33,048 bases of DNA from a virus. The notes under the pieces were generated by a model. The model did not search any database. It was not told the DNA's origin and saw only the letters and a program-made list of their open reading frames with translations. The stretch spans positions 1 to 33,048 of the IMG/VR virus record IMGVR_UViG_3300047373_000219; one strand, written 5' to 3'. Positions 5,982 through 29,276 of this stretch are shown piece by piece (positions within the stretch are counted from its first letter, which is position 1; every line of letters begins with the position of its first letter). A program made the translations under genes and the position numbers.

Positions 5982-6821
5982 TTACTGTGCTTCACGCCAT
6001 TCCCATCGGGGTAACTCATGTGAGCCTGACATGTGGAAACGCCCGAACCAACCGCCTAAACGAGGCGTGTTGAAACCTTTCTCAGTCGCCCATCCTGCGA
6101 ACCTATCGCCAAGCATTTTATAGCTACCTAACCTCAAGTGATGAACGCTCTCTTGATAGGCTTGCAAATCTTGATTGACCCTATCGACTGATGTCGGCAC
6201 ATACCACTTCTGATGTGTATGCCCTCTTACTATTACAGATGCGTCAGGGAACTGCGCGCTATCAAGGTCTACCTCCAACACGCCCTTACTGCGCTTTGCG
6301 TTTCCCCCGTATCCGTGATGATAATGCACTAAACTTGACCTACGTGCATTCCCGTCATTCTTCATCAGGTGGAACTTCAAGTACCCTGCATAACCACCAA
6401 CGTGAATGTCATGCTTATCGTGCCTCAGAAGGGAAGCGAGGCGGTCAAGAGGAGATGTGTGCAAACGTTTCTCAATACTCGTTTCATGATTGCCTCTCCC
6501 TAAGAACCGAACGTGCGGATGCTTCTTCAAGAACTCGTAGCTGTCGTCAATGACATTGTCGAGGTAGGTGATGCTCTTGTACTCAGGTCGCAAGTCGCTA
6601 TATGTTCCTCTTGGGTCATACTTGCCCTGCATTAGGTCGAACCAATCACCGAACACGAACACATCCGCGCCAATCGACTTAGCTTCATTCAAGTGTTTGA
6701 TTAAGCGAGGTCGGTCACACTTCATGCTGTCGTAGTGAACATCAGAGATAAAGAGAACGTTGTGTTCCCTACCTTCTTTCTCTACCCGAAAATTAGTCCT
6801 ACTCTTTTGCCTGATAATCAT
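5982..6821 (-). CDS. Calcineurin-like metallophosphoesterase
   Basis: This 279-residue enzyme shows all five metallophosphoesterase motifs in order: SDVH (Asp27, His29), GDWFD (Asp59), GRGNHE (Asn111, His112), a YHHG segment (about His168-169) and GHTH (200-203). These residues bind two metal ions and cleave phosphomono- or diesters. The spacing resembles the LpxH/MPE-like branch. It overlaps the protease gene by 4 bases and precedes the scaffold, so it sits inside the head module. The substrate cannot be read from the sequence: a nucleic-acid nuclease, a cyclic-nucleotide or signal phosphodiesterase, or a phosphatase linked to DNA modification are all possible. Confidence 0.85.
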   Translation of the reverse strand: MIIRQKSRTNFRVEKEGREHNVLFISDVHYDSMKCDRPRLIKHLNEAKSIGADVFVFGDWFDLMQGKYDPRGTYSDLRPEYKSITYLDNVIDDSYEFLKKHPHVRFLGRGNHETSIEKRLHTSPLDRLASLLRHDKHDIHVGGYAGYLKFHLMKNDGNARRSSLVHYHHGYGGNAKRSKGVLEVDLDSAQFPDASVIVRGHTHQKWYVPTSVDRVNQDLQAYQESVHHLRLGSYKMLGDRFAGWATEKGFNTPRLGGWFGRFHMSGSHELPRWEWREAQ

Positions 6822-17350: not shown

Positions 17351-17709
17351 TTCTGTTCCTTCAGCACTTGGTCAAACCACGTTGGTTCTCTTAGCGCGTT
17401 TCCTCCTGTGGTGATGTCTGTTGTTTCCACGTAGCCTCGCTTCTTGCCCTTAGTCTTGAGGTAGAAGATAGTGGCTGATGGGTTACCCTCTTGGATTAGC
17501 TTATGCAAGTTGCTCTCAGCGAAATCTACAGCTACATCAGACAGCTCTTGAACGGCTGCTGCGTATAACGGGTCTTCTTTAATCCATCGGTAGTGTGTGT
17601 CCCTGCTCACCTTAGCGGCTTTGCATGCGGTAGTGACAACACCGAGTGATGCTTCAAGTGCTTCTAAGAGCCTCTTTTTTACTGTGTCCGATATGTCAGG
17701 CTTTGTCAT
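17347..17709 (-). CDS. terS: Terminase small subunit
   Basis: This 120-residue protein has an N-terminal helix-turn-helix (VTTACKAAKVSRDTHYRWIKEDP, roughly residues 24-47) followed by a helical region and FYLKTKGKKRGYVE. That is the common form of small terminase subunits, which bind the packaging site and recruit the large subunit. It sits directly before terL with a 4-base overlap and begins 14 bases before the end of the dioxygenase gene, linking packaging to the DNA modification genes in one transcript. Confidence 0.85.
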   Translation of the reverse strand: MTKPDISDTVKKRLLEALEASLGVVTTACKAAKVSRDTHYRWIKEDPLYAAAVQELSDVAVDFAESNLHKLIQEGNPSATIFYLKTKGKKRGYVETTDITTGGNALREPTWFDQVLKEQK

Positions 17710-18517
17710 TGAGGAATGCTTTGATTGAATAGAAGATGAGGCTGTTCCTGTACCCTCCTTCTGCGTGTTCTTTGATGGGTGTTACGCCATGCATATTCTT
17801 CCATGCGGGATAGACGAGGAGGCTGTTGTCAGGTTGCTCAAACGTTGCTCCATACTCAGGTACATTGAGGCATCCTCCTTCGCTGTTTGCTCTCTTGGTG
17901 TAGATGATGTTTAGGCTACCCACGATGTTACGTGAGTCTCTGTGATAGGGTGCGCTTATATTATAGTTGGAGATGCTGCTCGTGAAGTACTTGCCGTATC
18001 GCCACTTGTCTTCAACGTCTTTGATTGCGTTCATCTGTGTTCCATAGAGGTCAGGGGCTAATTGTTTGATGAGGAGCATTCCTATCTGTGAGCATCCCAT
18101 CATTGCTTTCATGAAGGTTTTTGCTTTAGGCTCTGTGTGTGCGCTGCTGTACCCGTTAAACATTCTTCTTAGGCGAGGGTTCTTCGGTACTGAGCCGAGT
18201 ATCGTGCTGTACTGACTGCACCCTCCGTCCATAGCCCGAAACTTACTGAGGGGAATGCCTGCCTCATTGGCTGCATCTATCGCTTGCTGCCTGTCTAAAA
18301 ACTGCTTAGGGACTCTGTCGCTCCTAAACTCTTTGTTGGCGATGCTCAGAAGCTGTGTCAGCTTTTTGTCATATTTAGATATGTCACGAATGTACATACC
18401 GATGGGTTTCCCTTCCTCTGTGAGGAGACAGTCATCGAATACGTTAGGCTCAATGAAAGGACAGTCCTTGCCCATCTCTTTATCGTGTTCTACTTGGTGG
18501 AGTTCGAGTGTTCGCAT
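17696..18517 (-). CDS. TET/JBP-family 2-oxoglutarate/Fe(II) dioxygenase, predicted thymine hydroxylase
   Basis: The C-terminal half of this 273-residue protein carries the double-stranded beta-helix motifs of the TET/JBP family. The HxD motif is His192 and Asp194 in SAPYHRDSRN, followed by VGSLNIIY and GGCLNVPEYGATF. The distal iron ligand is His243 (NMHGVTP) and the 2-oxoglutarate-binding Arg257 lies in GGYRNSLIFY. JBP enzymes turn thymine in DNA into 5-hydroxymethyluracil and TET enzymes oxidise 5-methylcytosine. No cytosine methyltransferase or pyrimidine hydroxymethylase was seen in the window, so thymine is the likelier substrate. Residues 1-100 are not recognised. The gene overlaps the kinase gene by 28 bases and terS by 14. 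Confidence 0.85.
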   Translation of the reverse strand: MRTLELHQVEHDKEMGKDCPFIEPNVFDDCLLTEEGKPIGMYIRDISKYDKKLTQLLSIANKEFRSDRVPKQFLDRQQAIDAANEAGIPLSKFRAMDGGCSQYSTILGSVPKNPRLRRMFNGYSSAHTEPKAKTFMKAMMGCSQIGMLLIKQLAPDLYGTQMNAIKDVEDKWRYGKYFTSSISNYNISAPYHRDSRNIVGSLNIIYTKRANSEGGCLNVPEYGATFEQPDNSLLVYPAWKNMHGVTPIKEHAEGGYRNSLIFYSIKAFLNDKA

Positions 18518-19998
18518 AGAAGCATTTTAAGGTGGTTTAGAGCAACTGAAGAGTTCTTTGCTATCGTGTGCTTAGGCAGGTTGCTTACACGTGTTGTGAT
18601 GCTCTTTAAATGGCGCTCAGACTGATTCGAGCCTCGCTTGTTCCGACCCTCTGCGCCATCACCTTCTATATTGATGATGACAGGGTCTGCCTTTGCGATG
18701 AACTTGCTATTGCTGAAGCGGTCTCCTTCGAACACGGCTAACTTGCCTTTCTTCTCTATGTATGCAAGCATCTTGTTGAGGTCTGTCATCACGCTCATGC
18801 TCAGGCGGTCACTCCCTTCGAAGGTGCTGCCGTCATACTTGCCGACTACAATCCAATCATCGTTCTCATGGAAGTTAAACTTGCCTAATTTAAACGCCTT
18901 GTCGTCAGGTGTCAGTAGCTGCTTCATCGTCCATGTCTTTCCCACTCCACAGCAGCCCGTTATCAGTACGCACTTCCTGTGCCACGGCTTACTGCTCACC
19001 TTGAATCCTTCTTCTTCCATCATGATTACCTCTCCTGTGTGTCGATAGTGGTTCTGCTTTTCCTTACATAGACCCTTGTCAAGAGGGTTGTCTTCTTGTC
19101 TGAGGTGTTTGGGTAGTGCCCACTTCCTTGCCTTCCAAAACAAGCTGAGGTCTTCATCAGGGTATAGCCGTTCTGCCTTCCTGATGCGGTCATGGAACAT
19201 GTCATTGTAAACGTTAGGGTATCGCCTGTTGACCCTGTGCCATCCTTTGTAACAGCATAGGGTCGTTTCGAGGGTGAAGTAGCTGACATCAGGGTGGTCG
19301 ATTCGCTCCTTGGCTTCAGCTAAGAGGTCTTTCCCTGCCTGCTCAAGCCACCCTAAGTGTTCTGTGTAATCCACCTTGTCCTGCTTCCACCAATCGAGGT
19401 CATCCCTACCCATGACCTTGCATAGTCCGTTACGATGGCTCTTGCTGCCTGAGATGTCATCGAGGAATAGTTGGTCGCAGTCAAGCTGAAGTCCTGTTAG
19501 CCTCAAGTATTCTAAGTAGCTGAAGGTGCTGAGTCTTCCGAAGGTTTCAAAGCGATTGATTACCTGCTCCCACACCTGTCTGAAGTTGTGATGCTCATCA
19601 CCGTCACACAAGTCCGTAAAGTATGTACGTTGTGATTGTCCCTGCAAGGCATTCAGGTAACTCTTAACCGCATGAACGAACTTGGTTCTAGTGTACCGCC
19701 TGTCAGTATCGAAGGGAAGCTGAGTCCTATTCTCTTCGTACCACTCCTCAAGTATCTTGATGTTGATTTGCTCAAGGTTCGGGAACTCCTTCCATATCAT
19801 GTAGGTGGTAATCGGGTGCTGCGTACATCCGTTAATGAACGCAAACCACAGCCTCTGTTCGTCATGCATTCTCAGCGTATCGAACAGGTAAGGGAAAACA
19901 TAATAAACCGCACCTGCGTGTCCTCTGTTACGGAGGTGATACTCGTAAAACTTGAGGAACGTTTCACGCCTATGTTCAGGTAATCTGTAATCTACCAT
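18490..19998 (-). CDS. 5-hydroxymethyl-dU DNA kinase-like protein: helical domain plus P-loop kinase
   Basis: Starting at the ATG that overlaps the PLP gene stop by 7 bases gives 502 residues. An N-terminal helical domain (about 1-290) opens with RRETFLKFYEYHLRNRGHAG and FPYLFDTLRM. This resembles the glycosylase-related helical family once called alpha-glutamyl/putrescinyl thymine pyrophosphorylase clade 2 and later 5-hmdU DNA kinase helical domain. The C-terminal domain has Walker A GCCGVGKT (348-355), a GKYDGSTFEGSDRLS loop and a Walker B-like LAVFEGDRF (420-428). Such proteins are thought to phosphorylate hydroxymethyluracil in DNA so that the position can be displaced. The family name is from memory. 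The kinase half is certain, the substrate is inferred from the neighbouring dioxygenase. Confidence 0.72.
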   Translation of the reverse strand: MVDYRLPEHRRETFLKFYEYHLRNRGHAGAVYYVFPYLFDTLRMHDEQRLWFAFINGCTQHPITTYMIWKEFPNLEQINIKILEEWYEENRTQLPFDTDRRYTRTKFVHAVKSYLNALQGQSQRTYFTDLCDGDEHHNFRQVWEQVINRFETFGRLSTFSYLEYLRLTGLQLDCDQLFLDDISGSKSHRNGLCKVMGRDDLDWWKQDKVDYTEHLGWLEQAGKDLLAEAKERIDHPDVSYFTLETTLCCYKGWHRVNRRYPNVYNDMFHDRIRKAERLYPDEDLSLFWKARKWALPKHLRQEDNPLDKGLCKEKQNHYRHTGEVIMMEEEGFKVSSKPWHRKCVLITGCCGVGKTWTMKQLLTPDDKAFKLGKFNFHENDDWIVVGKYDGSTFEGSDRLSMSVMTDLNKMLAYIEKKGKLAVFEGDRFSNSKFIAKADPVIINIEGDGAEGRNKRGSNQSERHLKSITTRVSNLPKHTIAKNSSVALNHLKMLLCEHSNSTK

Positions 19999-20924
19999 TT
20001 GATGTCGCTCCCTACTATCCAAAACAGGGTGTTCATGTTCATGTAATGTTGAAGGTTCTGCTTCATGTATCTGATGCACTTACCCTCATAACGCGGATGG
20101 AACTCGATAGTGTCTATCCTCTCTCTAAATTCATCGGTGTACTTGCAGAACCCTGTGCCATTCAGGTCGTGATGCTCTATCTCATACTGATAGTCTTGCT
20201 CTCCCTTGAAGTTGAACAGACCTCTGATGTCGATGTCTACAACCTTACACAGCTTGAAGAGCCGTTCATAGACGTACTCTATGTTCTTGCTACCGATGTT
20301 TCCAATACCCAACAGCACGATGCGTTCAAGGTTAGGACGCGGATGCTGTACTAAGCCATACAAGATGCTCGTGATACTGTTGCATGAACCGCAAGGGACG
20401 ATTAGTGTCGTCACATGGTCAGGTATGTTTACTGACTGAAGCGAGCCTACACGATGAAACGCCTCTATGTCTCCCCAATAGTTCTTCTTTGAGTCTAAGG
20501 TGATGTTCGTTTCGAGGTACTTGAAGCCTTCCCACTTCTCGGCACTCTTCTTAGCGATTGCGCCACAAGCTGCTGCGTACCCTACCTTGCTCCTCGATAT
20601 AGTCGCTCCTTCCTCGTGAGCCATCCTCAGGTACTTGTGCTTCATTGGGTCAGCGACACCCGTAACTACATAGCAATGGATGTTGTAGTGATTACATATC
20701 GCTGCGATGAATATGTGCTGCGGTGACTGACTGACTGAGCCTGATGAAACGCCTGTACATCCATCTTCTCTCACCCACTTGTCAACGAGGTATATGCATT
20801 GCCTCAGTTTAGCCCCGTTGATACTTCCGTAACCTCGTGGCGCGAACTTGTCATCTCGTTTGAAGAGCATTCCTCCATGCTCCTCTACGGGCATCACCTC
20901 ATTGAGCAGATTCCCCCACCGCAT
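19992..20924 (-). CDS. Fold-type II PLP-dependent enzyme (ACC deaminase / tryptophan synthase beta-like)
   Basis: This 310-residue protein begins with the fold-type II pattern LFKRDDKFAPRGYGSINGAKLRQCIYLV, in which Lys39 would hold pyridoxal phosphate. It continues with a VSSGSVSQSPQHIFIAAICN segment corresponding to the Ser/Asn-rich cofactor loop, and LIVPCGSCNSITSILYGL (about 174-191) as the phosphate-binding loop. ACC deaminase, cysteine desulfhydrase and TrpB share this layout. The usual GGN before the lysine is altered to NGA. It lies between ParB-like and kinase genes, overlapping both, so a role in adding an amino-acid-derived group to modified thymine is inferred. An ordinary amino-acid metabolic role is less likely here. 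Confidence 0.75.
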   Translation of the reverse strand: MRWGNLLNEVMPVEEHGGMLFKRDDKFAPRGYGSINGAKLRQCIYLVDKWVREDGCTGVSSGSVSQSPQHIFIAAICNHYNIHCYVVTGVADPMKHKYLRMAHEEGATISRSKVGYAAACGAIAKKSAEKWEGFKYLETNITLDSKKNYWGDIEAFHRVGSLQSVNIPDHVTTLIVPCGSCNSITSILYGLVQHPRPNLERIVLLGIGNIGSKNIEYVYERLFKLCKVVDIDIRGLFNFKGEQDYQYEIEHHDLNGTGFCKYTDEFRERIDTIEFHPRYEGKCIRYMKQNLQHYMNMNTLFWIVGSDIKW

Positions 20925-21486
20925 TCCTTAATAGTTCAAGTACGGCAGTAGCCACATCAAAACCTTCTTCTTTAGCGACCTTGATTAGGTTGTATGCCTC
21001 ATCAAAGTCAGCTAACAGGAAGTTAATCTGTATGGCTTTCGTCGTTGCGTCTACAATCTCATCAACACGCTCGTCTAATCCTGAGAACTCTTCCGTGTCA
21101 AGTATGCTGTAATCAACATCTACCTCGGGTGTCCATACATGAAGACCCCACTCACGAAGCTGTACTGCATCCCAAGTATTGCCTAACATATCCCAATCCC
21201 AACTACCTGACGAGATATTGTCTTTGATGATGAACTCTTTCTTCTGCTCATCGGTTAAACCTTTAGCTACTTGAACGGGGACTTCTTTGTAGCCTATCTC
21301 TGTCAATGCGCGTAGCCTCATGTTACCGCCTAACAGCATGAAGTCTTCATCTACTGTTAGTGGTCTGAGTTCAATCATCCAAGGAGCGTCGATTAGTGAC
21401 TGCTTCAGTTCACCGAACTTCTCTTCTGTAATTACCCGTGGGTTTTCGGGATTAGGCTTGACCTTACTTAGTGCTATCTTCTTCAT
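20899..21486 (-). CDS. ParB-like nuclease-domain protein
   Basis: This 195-residue protein has the ParB/Srx fold pattern at residues 1-95: KIALSKVKPNPENPRVI, LRPLTVDEDFMLLGGNMRLRAL and IGYKEVPV, where GGNMRLRA corresponds to the GxRR box. Then follow a conserved EFIIKDNISSGSWDWDML segment and an acidic C-terminus. Phage proteins of this type often lie next to DNA methylases or base-modification genes and bind or act on nucleotides or DNA; they are not partition proteins. It overlaps the PLP gene by 26 bases and may guide or assist the modification pathway. Confidence 0.75.
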   Translation of the reverse strand: MKKIALSKVKPNPENPRVITEEKFGELKQSLIDAPWMIELRPLTVDEDFMLLGGNMRLRALTEIGYKEVPVQVAKGLTDEQKKEFIIKDNISSGSWDWDMLGNTWDAVQLREWGLHVWTPEVDVDYSILDTEEFSGLDERVDEIVDATTKAIQINFLLADFDEAYNLIKVAKEEGFDVATAVLELLRNAVGESAQ

Positions 21487-26156: not shown

Positions 26157-26431
26157 CGCTTCTTGTATTTAGCGGTTAAAGATTGGATTTTATTTAGGGC
26201 AATACGAGCCTCATACATTGCGGCTCTAACGTCAGCAGAATCTGACAGCATAGAGTACAACCTTCTGTACTCAGGCATAGCGTCAGGGTGATTAGGGAGA
26301 GCATCAGCCTTTAGCTGCGTCTGAGCGGCATCTCTCTCTAAGGTATTCGTGGTGCGATACAACTCAACTGTCATAGACACAGCCTCATCATATGCTAGGG
26401 AAAGGGTCTGTTCAGGAAGAGGCTTACGCAT
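26153..26431 (-). CDS. Hypothetical helical protein (92 aa)
   Basis: The ATG at 26431 overlaps the upstream stop by 8 bases and is preferred over a GTG at 26485 that would add 18 very basic residues. The product is mostly helical (YDEAVSMTVELYRTTNTLER, ADVRAAMYEARIALNKIQ) with a basic tail (TAKYKKR). Function unknown. Confidence 0.55.
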   Translation of the reverse strand: MRKPLPEQTLSLAYDEAVSMTVELYRTTNTLERDAAQTQLKADALPNHPDAMPEYRRLYSMLSDSADVRAAMYEARIALNKIQSLTAKYKKR

Positions 26432-26849
26432 GACCCTGTGTTTTAACGTCCTCAGATGCCGTCTCTTGAACCTTCGTGGTTTCACTTAGGTGAGCGCCTA
26501 AGTTATTTGCTAACCACTCTGAGTACGTACCCTCGATGTCCTCATAGTCATCCATGCGGTACTCTAACTCATCTTCACCAATATACACATCGACCTCCTT
26601 ACAGACGGACACCTCTGTGTCTTCAATAGATATGTCAATATCTACCTCTCGATTCCATGAGGATTCTGACACAGCCTTCTCAGCATGGACACGGGCTTGC
26701 TTGTAACCTGCCTCGTATGCTCTAGCAATAAACGCGGCATTAGCCTCTCCGAGGTCAGCCATCTGCGTTAAGTGTTCTTCAAGAGTCAGTATAGACTGCT
26801 CTTGTGATTTCATGATGGCGCTTGCCATCTCTCTAATAGTATTCTCCAT
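26424..26849 (-). CDS. Hypothetical acidic protein (141 aa)
   Basis: This acidic protein has a helical first half (ENTIREMASAIMKSQEQSIL, AYEAGYKQARVHAEKAV) and a strongly acidic centre (VDIDISIEDTEVSVCKEVDV and GEDELEYRMDDYEDIEG). Such charge could mimic nucleic acid or bind a basic partner; this is only a suggestion. The gene follows a hammerhead ribozyme, and self-cleavage would leave its message with a 29-base leader. Confidence 0.55.
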   Translation of the reverse strand: MENTIREMASAIMKSQEQSILTLEEHLTQMADLGEANAAFIARAYEAGYKQARVHAEKAVSESSWNREVDIDISIEDTEVSVCKEVDVYIGEDELEYRMDDYEDIEGTYSEWLANNLGAHLSETTKVQETASEDVKTQGHA

Positions 26850-26872
26850 TTGATTTGTTGTTTAGGAGGTTA

Positions 26873-26925
26873 GACATAGACGGGGCATAACCCCGTTTCG
26901 ACCTGTGAGGTCTCATCAGTATGCC
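26873..26925 (-). ncRNA. Type I hammerhead ribozyme 1
   Basis: Reading the minus strand, the core CTGATGA is at 26919-26913. Stem II is GACCT/AGGTC with a CAC loop, then comes GAAA (26899-26896). Stem III is CGGGG/CCCCG with a TTATG loop, followed by the cleavage triplet GTC (26881-26879). Stem I pairs GGCATA (26925-26920) with TATGTC (26878-26873) and is open to the rest of the transcript, giving type I topology. All conserved core bases are present. It begins directly after the TAA of the 145-residue gene, and cleavage leaves a 29-base leader before the next ATG. Confidence 0.9.
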
Positions 26926-27363
26926 TTAGCTATTCAGCTTGTTCCAATCTCTGTTGAACTCCTTCATGGTTTTCTGAAGTAGCTCTTGTTCTTTCTCTAC
27001 TTCAAGAACCTTCAGTACAACAGCAGTCATGATAGGCTCAAACAACTTTGCTGTATGCTCCCAATCTTCACTAGCAGAACGGCATATGCTTCTGAGACGA
27101 TTGTAGAGGTTAGTCTCTTTTGGGTACATGAACCGCTCTAGCTTGTCAGCTAAGTCAGCAAAGAAGCGGCTCATCTCGTAATCCTCATAGCCGTTCATCA
27201 CGTTACCGCCTCCGTTGTTGTAGATGTCATAGGAGAACCTGCCTATGGCGCGGATAGCCTCGCCATGTCTAGTTGATGCTTCTCCTGATGCGGGTACGTG
27301 CTTGTCCCATAGGCGGTCATATTCTGCCTGTAACTCTCCTGTTCCATTAAAGTAACTCTTCAT
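26926..27363 (-). CDS. Hypothetical protein (145 aa) flanked by two hammerhead ribozymes
   Basis: This helical protein has several amphipathic stretches (MSRFFADLADKLERFMYPKE, EPIMTAVVLKVLEVEKEQEL) and no recognised domain or membrane segment. It is the only gene between the two hammerhead ribozymes, which both read in its direction. Self-cleavage at 27393/27392 and at 26879/26878 would release a 514-base RNA carrying this one gene. The ends would be a 5'-hydroxyl and a 2',3'-cyclic phosphate, which are substrates for RNA ligases. Function unknown. Confidence 0.6.
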   Translation of the reverse strand: MKSYFNGTGELQAEYDRLWDKHVPASGEASTRHGEAIRAIGRFSYDIYNNGGGNVMNGYEDYEMSRFFADLADKLERFMYPKETNLYNRLRSICRSASEDWEHTAKLFEPIMTAVVLKVLEVEKEQELLQKTMKEFNRDWNKLNS

Positions 27364-27386
27364 GATTGTGTGATTTAGATTTGTTT

Positions 27387-27439
27387 GACACAGACGCCCT
27401 CTAGGAGCGTTTCGGCTATTGAAGCCTCATCAGTATGTC
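27387..27439 (-). ncRNA. Type I hammerhead ribozyme 2
   Basis: The same layout as ribozyme 1 with different stem sequences: CTGATGA at 27433-27427, stem II GGCT/AGCC with loop TCAAT, GAAA at 27413-27410, stem III CGCTC/GGGCG (one G-U pair) with loop CTAGA, GTC at 27395-27393, and stem I GACATA (27439-27434) with TGTGTC (27392-27387). Stems II and III keep pairing although the bases changed between the two copies, which is covariation. It starts directly after a TAA stop and its cut lies 29 bases before the next ATG, exactly as in copy 1. Confidence 0.9.
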
Positions 27440-27739
27440 TTATGCCCACACCTTCTTGACTAGCATGATGTGACGGTCTTGTAGGTACTTCTCTCCCTTG
27501 CAAACTTCACCGCTAGGGAGGATAACTTCTTTGATTCGTAGGGCATCAAACAACCCGTCTTCTCCGCCCCATTGCATATGCACGGCTGTGATGAAGGTGT
27601 TCTGAGGAGTGGTGATGTAAACATTCCACTCGCCTAGAGTCTCGTTAAAGCAGTAGTCAGACACGCTAATGCTGTAACCCTTAGAACGTAGGGTGTAGAG
27701 CAGTTGAGAAGCGGTAGGGTAGGTAGTAGGAGTAGTCAT
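27440..27739 (-). CDS. Hypothetical protein (99 aa)
   Basis: This soluble protein of unknown family has an N-terminal TASQLLYTLRSKGYSISVSD and beta-rich remainder (EWNVYITTPQNTFITAVHMQ, RHIMLVKKVW). The stop abuts the 5' strand of hammerhead ribozyme 2, so its message would end in the ribozyme after cleavage. It follows a 40-residue gene by 25 bases in the transcript from promoter B. No function is assigned. Confidence 0.6.
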   Translation of the reverse strand: MTTPTTYPTASQLLYTLRSKGYSISVSDYCFNETLGEWNVYITTPQNTFITAVHMQWGGEDGLFDALRIKEVILPSGEVCKGEKYLQDRHIMLVKKVWA

Positions 27740-27764
27740 GGCGGTAGGTATTAAAGTAAGAGGA

Positions 27765-27887
27765 TTATTTGACGATTTCGATAGTCTCCATAGTCGCTAC
27801 ATCGACCATGTGTGTGAAGCCTGTGATTTCACATATGAAGGGATGTACGCCTTCGGTAGGGAAACTAGGGTTGAGAGGAGAGTTCAT
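27765..27887 (-). CDS. Small hypothetical protein (40 aa)
   Basis: The frame from the ATG at 27887 to TAA at 27765 encodes a 40-residue protein with a natural composition (TEGVHPFICEITGFTHMVDV). It lies 58 bases downstream of the candidate promoter B and 25 bases before the next gene, in the same direction. Its codons look usable and no other minus-strand frame explains the interval. No family recognised; translation is inferred. Confidence 0.45.
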   Translation of the reverse strand: MNSPLNPSFPTEGVHPFICEITGFTHMVDVATMETIEIVK

Positions 27888-27944
27888 GAGAGAGAGGATT
27901 TAAAATTAGATACCGCTAAGATGGGAGTGTCATTATCATAAATC

Positions 27945-28012
27945 CAAATTTATTTTTGGTTTTTTTTTGAAACGCTACGGGGACTAGGGAGAGAGAGCCG
28001 AATTTTTTTTGG
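27945..28012 (-). promoter_or_regulatory. Early promoter candidate B
   Basis: Minus-strand order: A8 tract, GGCTCTCTCTCCCTAG, GTAGCGTTTC at 27978-27969, 16 bases, then TAAATTTG at 27952-27945. The final box matches the Bacteroidota -7 consensus TAnnTTTG. The same order and identical spacing occur in element A. It faces the 40-residue gene and the ribozyme-bearing part of the early operon. Confidence 0.65.
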
Positions 28013-28143
28013 TTAACAATGACGATTAGGGGCTACGCGCTGAAGGAGTTCTCGCTAGGGAGAAGCAACGATTAGGTCTTTCCTAACGCTGCGCCTAGCG
28101 ATGCCCCAAGGAGGCTCTGAGAGCTTCCCTGAGGCAGCGAGGC
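28013..28143 (-). other. Structured intergenic region after the ArdC-like gene
   Basis: Nothing coding is seen. The stretch holds a hairpin (TTAGG/CCTAA with loop TCTTT at 28069-28088), an imperfect palindrome around 28112-28126 (GGCTCTGAGAGCTT), several CTAGCG/CGCTAGG repeats and one copy of a 16-base repeat shared with 25.2 kb (28044-28059). It could hold the replication origin or a weak terminator. Confidence 0.3.
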
Positions 28144-29043
28144 TCATCCTGCCATATAAGCCTGTGAGGACTCGATTATGCGGTCTACTGCCTTACTCGC
28201 TTGTGATGCTGCATACACTATCAGCTTAGGGTCATCAGTCAGGGCACTAGCCCATCCATTGATGTAAGCCTGTGAGGACTCTTGGTCGAAGTCAATGTCC
28301 CATAGGCTACTGAGCATCTGCGCTCCCATCTCAGCTACTAACTCCTCCTTGCTGTAAGCCTCTTTGCCAAACTCTGTGTCCATCTCAAAACGCTTTAGGC
28401 GCTTAGGATGACCTGTGCTGTGGATAGCCTCGTGAATGAACGTGTGGTCGTAGGCAGCCTGACTCACAAAGCTGTCTCTAGGTGGCATCATGATAGCATC
28501 CTTGCTTGGGCTATAAGCAGCCTTGTCTCCCACTATAGTAAAGATGCTCTCTCGTGTGCAGTAGGCATCCAATAGTGAAGGTTCTAAGGTAGCGTTAGCC
28601 TCACTTGAGTACTTAGCCTCAAGACCCTCGCATTGCTCAAGGTTGAACACATAGTAGACACGCATTGACCAACCCTCAGAGGCATCAGCCTTACGGATGC
28701 CTGCCTTCTGAAGCTGTGCTGCTGAGTACCACTTGTCTTTGTGGCAGTAGCTAACATTCCAAAAGACAATACCCGTAGCCTGCGCGCCCTTCTTGACAGA
28801 GCCTCCACACGCCTCTGCTTGCTTGTAGGTGACCCACTCATTTCGTGAGTAGCCATGTGCCCACATCTCAGCATTGAGGAGGAAGGTGTTGATGCCCTTG
28901 TATGCTTTACCTGTGCTGTGGTTAACAGGTGCGTAGATGTTGCCGTCTACGGTAAAGGGTCGGAAGTACTTGAGCCCTTGCTCCTTGAGTCCTGCTATCA
29001 CACGCTCTGTGACAACCTCGTAGATGTTCTTTTTAGTATTCAT
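28144..29043 (-). CDS. ArdC-like anti-restriction protein (ssDNA-binding domain plus zincin)
   Basis: Starting at the ATG that shares TAATG with the upstream stop gives 299 residues. The N-terminal part (about 1-140: YFRPFTVDGNIYAPVNHSTG, YKGINTFLLN, WVTYKQAEACGGSVKKGAQA) matches the ArdC single-stranded DNA-binding domain. The C-terminal part has a zincin motif HEAIHSTGH (His204, His208) with Glu238 as the likely third ligand in EELVAEMGAQ. ArdC proteins shield incoming DNA from type I/II restriction; the peptidase role is unclear. As one of the first early genes, it would protect the genome before new modified DNA is made. Confidence 0.85.
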   Translation of the reverse strand: MNTKKNIYEVVTERVIAGLKEQGLKYFRPFTVDGNIYAPVNHSTGKAYKGINTFLLNAEMWAHGYSRNEWVTYKQAEACGGSVKKGAQATGIVFWNVSYCHKDKWYSAAQLQKAGIRKADASEGWSMRVYYVFNLEQCEGLEAKYSSEANATLEPSLLDAYCTRESIFTIVGDKAAYSPSKDAIMMPPRDSFVSQAAYDHTFIHEAIHSTGHPKRLKRFEMDTEFGKEAYSKEELVAEMGAQMLSSLWDIDFDQESSQAYINGWASALTDDPKLIVYAASQASKAVDRIIESSQAYMAG

Positions 29044-29276
29044 TATCCTAAGTTGTAATTTGAAATCTCGCCACAGATGACATTCTCTCCGTGAATCTCC
29101 ATATAGGGATATGACGTTGCCTCGGCACATCTCTTCAAGAACATAACTACTTGATACTCGCTGAGGTGAAGTGCCTTGGAAGCGTATTTAACTTGAGTGA
29201 ATGAAGGAGCGTTAAGTAGGACAGGGAGGGTTTCTCCTGAGGAGATGGACACGTAGATGTTGTAGTAGGTTTCCAT
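29043..29276 (-). CDS. Hypothetical protein (77 aa)
   Basis: This small protein is not recognised. It starts METYYNIYVSISSGETLPVL and is mixed in structure, with a helix (SKALHLSEYQVVMFLKRCAE) in the middle. The stop overlaps the ArdC-like start (TAATG), so the two are translationally coupled. The leader before the ATG is A-rich without a Shine-Dalgarno-like sequence. Confidence 0.55.
   Translation of the reverse strand: METYYNIYVSISSGETLPVLLNAPSFTQVKYASKALHLSEYQVVMFLKRCAEATSYPYMEIHGENVICGEISNYNLG

Follow-up and report, generated by a model that had tools for sequence, protein, structure and literature searches.

Hammerhead ribozymes in phage genomes

What hammerhead ribozymes do for bacteria and phages is an acknowledged open question (PMC6155905). 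The closest described systems are in prophages: in the main article of Perreault et al. (2011; PMC3088659), hammerheads are reported flanking single genes, with clusters including a triple hammerhead around ardA in Agrobacterium and others in Clostridium scindens and Azorhizobium, processing into gene-length mRNAs is proposed, and cleavage is shown for several. According to the same article, the tandem hammerheads of the Agrobacterium ardA cluster cleave both in vitro and in E. coli; 4 of 18 consensus hammerheads were inactive in vitro; and the hammerhead of the haloviruses HF1/HF2 lies 13 nt before the start of an early helicase gene, with a transcript 5' end within 3 nt of the cut.

The window analyzed here is the whole of IMG/VR virus record IMGVR_UViG_3300047373_000219 (33,048 bases, classed linear). 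It carries two hammerheads on the same strand, one on either side of a single gene in a phage genome, and so belongs to this already published kind. Both are probably active type I ribozymes that process a polycistronic phage transcript at gene boundaries.

Two type I hammerheads around one gene

The genes considered around the two ribozymes are all on the minus strand: a 99-aa ORF (27440..27739) upstream of ribozyme A (HHR-A), a 145-aa ORF (26926..27363) between the ribozymes, and a 141-aa ORF (26424..26849) downstream of ribozyme B (HHR-B). The two ribozyme-bearing gaps are 76 nt each (27439-27364 and 26925-26850). A complete hammerhead core with three pairing stems had been read from the letters of both gaps, and a descriptor scan agrees. 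HHR-A (27387..27439, minus strand) has stem I at 27439-27434 paired with 27392-27387 (GACATA/TGTGTC), the core CTGATGA at 27433-27427, stem II at 27426-27414 (GGCT-TCAAT-AGCC), GAAA at 27413-27410, stem III at 27409-27395 (CGCTC-CTAGA-GGGCG), and T27394 and C27393 of the GTC triplet. HHR-B (26873..26925, minus strand) has the same layout with different stems: stem I at 26925-26920 with 26878-26873 (GGCATA/TATGTC), CTGATGA at 26919-26913, stem II at 26912-26900 (GACC-TCACA-GGTC), GAAA at 26899-26896, stem III at 26895-26881 (CGGGG-TTATG-CCCCG), and T26880 and C26879 of GTC. The type I core (CUGANGA, GAAA, and UH at the cleavage site) is exact in both, and both have the type I topology, with stems II and III closed and stem I open. 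Folded in isolation, each gives a three-way junction as its minimum free energy (MFE) structure (z = -2.57 for HHR-B); with longer flanks, competing folds appear for HHR-A. The stem-checking descriptor finds just these two elements in the whole window, and none in 300 Markov-1 randomized windows.

By established hammerhead chemistry, cleavage is predicted after C17 of the GTC triplet, between 27393 and 27392 in HHR-A and between 26879 and 26878 in HHR-B (both minus strand). Each element begins right after a stop codon, the TAA of the upstream gene directly abutting stem I, and each predicted cut is exactly 29 nt before the next ATG, both as originally described. The leader that would remain on the 145-aa mRNA (27364..27392, minus strand) begins UGUGUCAAAC and has weak structure when folded alone (-2 kcal/mol); its AAAC tail is conserved in relatives. 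The one remaining on the 141-aa mRNA (26850..26878, minus strand) begins UAUGUCUAAC and is structure-free by folding. The coordinates also bear out the predicted release of a 514-nt RNA (27392-26879) containing the 145-codon ORF.

Rfam and covariance models

The expectation that the Rfam type I model should hit both elements fails at gathering thresholds, where Rfam finds neither. At relaxed E-values, Hammerhead_1 (RF00163, gathering threshold 34 bits) gives a sub-threshold 21.8 bits for HHR-B and no match for HHR-A, and RAGATH-1-hammerhead (RF03152, threshold 56.3) gives 25.8 and 22.7 bits for the two elements. Twenty loci with some 30 such elements likewise have no Rfam gathering match, nor does Rfam 15 at gathering threshold find a hammerhead in the genomes of Bcep176 and PaP3, published hammerheads notwithstanding; the variant cores of these last escaped both Rfam and the descriptor. 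The missing match is therefore a matter of low threshold sensitivity, and is neither counter-evidence nor proof of a new class; the RF00163 cut-off belongs to the database and does not define the ribozyme biochemically.

Searching IMG/VR by sequence patterns yielded 163 unique hammerhead elements on 145 contigs, the two in the window and some contigs from genomes being counted in; many phage hammerheads are evidently missed at Rfam gathering thresholds. A covariance model was built from 60 non-redundant phage hammerheads, none of them from the window, which align with few gaps. With this model, HHR-A scores 68.1 bits (E 1.9e-16) and HHR-B 59.0 bits (E 5.8e-14), and the next best place in the window 9.7. 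Among the 60 relatives, pairing holds in 98.2% of cells, both partners vary in 14 of the 16 pairs, and all three stems covary (covariation 0.754, vs. 0.162 in shuffled and at most 0.093 in slid alignments).

Core conservation

Searches with altered cores suggest that inactive forms are not retained. The intact-core pattern has at least 119 viral matches; its G5A dead-core version has none; and the version with G at the cleavage position (G17) has three, two of which are by inspection intact hammerheads in another register (TA^TGGC, stem I GCCA/TGGC), while the stems of the third do not pair. With no G5A match and no true G17 case against at least 119 intact ones, natural copies, judged by their sequences, keep a working core.

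Leader length and the AA tail

Leader lengths were examined in 64 non-redundant elements selected neither on tail nor on ATG, the tail-selected pattern being a source of bias in the full element set. The first ATG is 24-31 nt past the cut in 39 of the 64 and 19-35 nt past it in 48, with a mode of 25-26; about a quarter of these non-selected elements break the rule. A Shine-Dalgarno-like leader is found in 21 of the 48 and is missing from 27, with equal spacing in both. Over all elements, tail-selected ones included, the best 8-nt window for the cut-to-ATG distance (25-32 nt) takes in 65%, compared to 30% in the best such window for the stop-to-ATG distance in the same ribozyme gaps, and at most 7.9% in any 8-nt window for those 60-300 nt gaps of the same loci that have no ribozyme. 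The spacing constraint therefore acts on the cut, not on the gap. A rule that ties the spacing to the cut and holds whether or not there is a Shine-Dalgarno sequence is a functional signature pointing to the making of mRNA 5' ends, and is directly testable. In one group of phages, which have as many as four consecutive hammerheads (loci L101, L105, L118, and L144), the post-cut leaders share the Shine-Dalgarno-bearing sequence AACTGCTAGGAG, with the same spacing of 25-28 nt.

Next to stem I, adenines are found at +7 and +8 in 41 and 44 of 48 elements, anchored to the ribozyme and not to the ATG. This AA tail is associated with a UNNNN loop II (37:5 vs. 6:16; Fisher 1.6e-6, kinship ignored), and is likely a tertiary-contact partner of that loop. 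HHR-A matches the pattern exactly (UCAAU, AAAC); in HHR-B, loop II is UCACA and stem I can be extended by one pair before AAC; its AA lies one base further out.

Proposed processing

From anatomy, covariation, core conservation, and the leader-length rule, all of them computed, we infer cleavage in the cell, a processing purpose, and an effect on stability and translation. That such hammerheads cut a polycistronic message into defined units, as originally predicted, is well supported by the first three of these and by more than 100 relatives. The ribozyme, which starts at the upstream stop codon, would fold once the ribosome has cleared it, and cleavage would follow transcription, 25-30 nt ahead of the next start codon (29 in the window). 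The 3' end of the upstream mRNA would keep the hairpins of the ribozyme and bear a 2',3'-cyclic phosphate; the downstream mRNA would start with a short, little-structured 5'-OH leader, fixed in length and carrying a host-type initiation signal. Decay that depends on a 5' monophosphate acts poorly on 5'-OH ends. The stability and translation of adjacent genes could thereby be uncoupled. The leader may be just long enough to fit an initiating 30S subunit beside stem I.

More generally, and tentatively, phages of several host groups might share a standard gene-boundary module in which a hammerhead that overlaps the stop codon upstream makes an mRNA 5' end 25-30 nt before the next start, providing every gene, independently of promoters, with a short 5'-OH leader whose length is set by the room that a 30S subunit needs beside the ribozyme, with loop II docking on the AA tail. 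Against the processing reading, homologs of the 145-aa gene manage without a ribozyme, so that this gene does not in general need processing; also against it are type I hammerheads in Pelagibacter phages, which have no 25-30 nt leader and stand ahead of a long non-coding stretch, as well as the elements that break the leader rule, the terL relatives in whose compared fragments there is no such element, and the published consensus hammerheads that were inactive in vitro.

Upstream stop codons

The stop codons of upstream genes cluster at a few offsets in the element: 0/+1, the stem I boundary; +6, a TAA within stem I; +10, the core's TGA; and +20, a TAA in loop II. The footprint of a terminating ribosome reaches about 12-15 nt downstream. 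Stem I and the core would thus lie under a ribosome that stands at the stop codon, and cleavage probably has to wait for its release. A stronger version, which seems unlikely, would make this a translation-gated switch: the terminating ribosome blocks folding, so that cleavage signals a poorly translated upstream gene and adjusts the relative amounts of the two proteins. The fixed positions of the stop codons, and a footprint coinciding with stem I plus core, are as such a switch would have them, but the overlap would also be expected in compact phage genomes, the ribosome may merely delay a constitutive cleavage, and no sensor domain is seen.

A possible circular product

The pair could conceivably free the 514-nt RNA for circularization in the manner of retrozymes and viroid-like RNAs, with either the ribozyme running in reverse or an RtcB-type ligase of the host closing the circle. 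The suggestion that the ends would suit ligation into a circle stands as far as the chemistry goes, in that it is true of any hammerhead product; little else supports circles here. In the window, GGCAUA, the 5' strand of stem I in HHR-B, can pair at 6/6 positions with UGUGUC, with which the released RNA would begin. Within contigs, stem I is fully interchangeable in 25 of 54 tandem pairs, a larger share than among random pairs (16%), but a shared stem I within one phage is also expected from duplication, and 14 of the 54 pairs match at four positions or fewer, so that stem I cannot re-form properly. While 52 of the 145 contigs have two or more hammerheads, 93 have a single one within the stretch examined. 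The enclosed 145-aa gene has homologs without ribozymes, and a hunt for circles from clustered hammerheads, as given in the main article of Perreault et al. (PMC3088659), was negative. No RtcB was found among the window proteins scanned with Pfam, a subset of the ORFs. Circularization is possible in the window, though quite improbable as the explanation of the pair, and is not a trait of the family.

Flanking genes

The 145-aa protein has no PHROG match and no significant Pfam match, and a search of IMG/VR proteins returned nothing; weak homologs were found only inside the collected hammerhead loci, in L007 (30%) and L029 (37%). Neither has an adjacent ribozyme: in both, the homolog overlaps or abuts the preceding gene, as in operons of overlapping genes, and the hammerhead on each contig is some 2.6 kb away. 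The window's neighboring genes include NinG, ParB, and, upstream in the same cluster, an ArdC-like antirestriction gene (28144..29130, minus strand; PHROG 7245, E 1.2e-59; Pfam ArdcN and MPTase-PolyVal). The genes flanking the relatives are diverse, and where they are named, among the first 25 PHROG families listed, they are non-structural: RNA polymerase, DNA ligase, ArdA, ArdC, MazG, and ATPases. With such neighbors on both counts, the label "early gene" for the 145-aa gene is plausible. Phages related to that of the window by terL (43-65% identity) have neither the ribozymes nor these genes in the fragments compared. The flanking genes being diverse, the 145-aa homologs ribozyme-free, and the terL relatives without either, the ribozyme goes with gene boundaries and not with one gene.

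A distribution of this kind might also be left by selfish or neutral cassettes, spreading among phage gene boundaries and tolerated there, with cleavage of no benefit. Flanking genes vary, one gene family occurs both with and without a ribozyme, and sister phages have none, all as cassettes would have it; but a G5A core is never seen, covariation is strong, and leader length is constrained by the cut and not by the gap, all of which argue for selection on cleavage and make idle cassettes very improbable. That the pair is a chance or dead hammerhead-like sequence, for which the unmet Rfam gathering thresholds might speak, is hardly credible given zero elements in 300 randomized windows, E-values of 1.9e-16 and 5.8e-14 against a model built without them, and two copies in one operon, both at gene boundaries and with identical 29-nt leaders.

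Some further features of the neighborhood may be recorded. Two of the collected loci, L012 (6664-6719, directly before the gene) and L039 (6749-6797), have a hammerhead a short way ahead of an ArdC-like antirestriction gene, a placement that echoes the published hammerhead-ardA association. In the window, a 404-nt non-coding gap (27740-28143) separates the ArdC-like gene from the ribozyme operon; within it, a TAnnTTTG box at 27952 (minus strand, also readable on the plus) is a candidate -7 element of a Bacteroidota-type promoter, one of 16 such boxes in the window. Scans of the cluster for sigma-70 promoters and terminators gave nothing above shuffled sequences. Elsewhere, 17696-20924 is likely a thymine-hypermodification cluster, comprising a Tet/JBP oxygenase (17696-18517), a protein (18490-20079) that resembles ADDT amino acid:DNA transferases and weakly matches AAA/P-loop, and a weak match to a PALP-type PLP enzyme (19992-20924), adjoining a ParB-N protein (20899-21486).

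Host and cultured relatives

A Shine-Dalgarno-like motif precedes only 5 of 36 window genes, while there is an A at -12 in 29 of the 36 and at -13 in 22. In Flavobacterium johnsoniae, adenines at -12, -13, -6, and -3 are positive determinants, and A enrichment around -12/-13 is characteristic of Bacteroidetes (PMC6847099). The scarcity of Shine-Dalgarno motifs and the A-rich -12/-13 positions together make a Bacteroidota host likely for the window phage, on the evidence of its start regions.

By blastn, the window region matches nothing among cultured phages; relatives were found only by the ribozyme itself. A contig labelled Flammeovirgaceae has two elements, and the single element of Flavobacterium phage elemoC (E 1.1e-13) would leave a 28-nt leader before gene 41; elemoA and elemoB match the same stretch by blastn. 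As a cultured phage with the same arrangement, elemoC offers a laboratory system. Among other Bacteroidota genomes, 0 of 394 had an element under strict filters of low sensitivity. The Pelagibacter phages HTVC131P (L183, 2658-2724), Jormungand (L185, about 5997-6057), and HTVC019P (L186, 2948-3012) have type I hammerheads before a long non-coding stretch, beyond which lie MarR, integrase, and RNA polymerase genes. For two of these phages, UUUUGC AUG would be the first bases of the RNA after the cut. Pattern matches in Prevotella, Poribacteria, and Neomarinimicrobiota genomes were rejected, having no model support, as were the matches in Streptomyces phages (R4 and others), which cover stem II/III only; a check of one of these phages, R4, showed no full ribozyme.

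Comparison with known systems

Retrozymes and viroid-like circular RNAs resemble the window in that tandem hammerheads free a unit-length RNA, here as a prediction; unlike theirs, the unit in the window codes for a protein and is no retroelement, and in the family stem I is often not interchangeable. Of the Rfam families, Hammerhead_1 (RF00163) has the same type I topology and core as the window elements, which score below its 34 bits. RAGATH-1-hammerhead (RF03152) shares the core and the open stem I and gives both elements their best Rfam score, but this is far under 56.3, and the upstream hairpin of that family aligns poorly. The hammerhead of HF1/HF2 (HHphage) also stands just upstream of a viral gene, an early one in those viruses; it differs in its 13 nt to the start codon, its altered core with insertions, and its archaeal host.

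The nearest likeness is to the prophage clusters of Perreault et al. (2011): the window hammerheads are in tandem, one gene apart, in a phage operon and near antirestriction genes. Unlike those clusters, they are of a compact type I form, with a 6-bp open stem I, a UNNNN loop II, and an AA tail. In the subfamily to which they belong, there is a fixed distance from cut to ATG and an overlap with the upstream stop codon; neither seems to be described in the main article (PMC3088659) or in the literature searched, and within that scope the leader rule of 25-30 nt is the new part of the present description.
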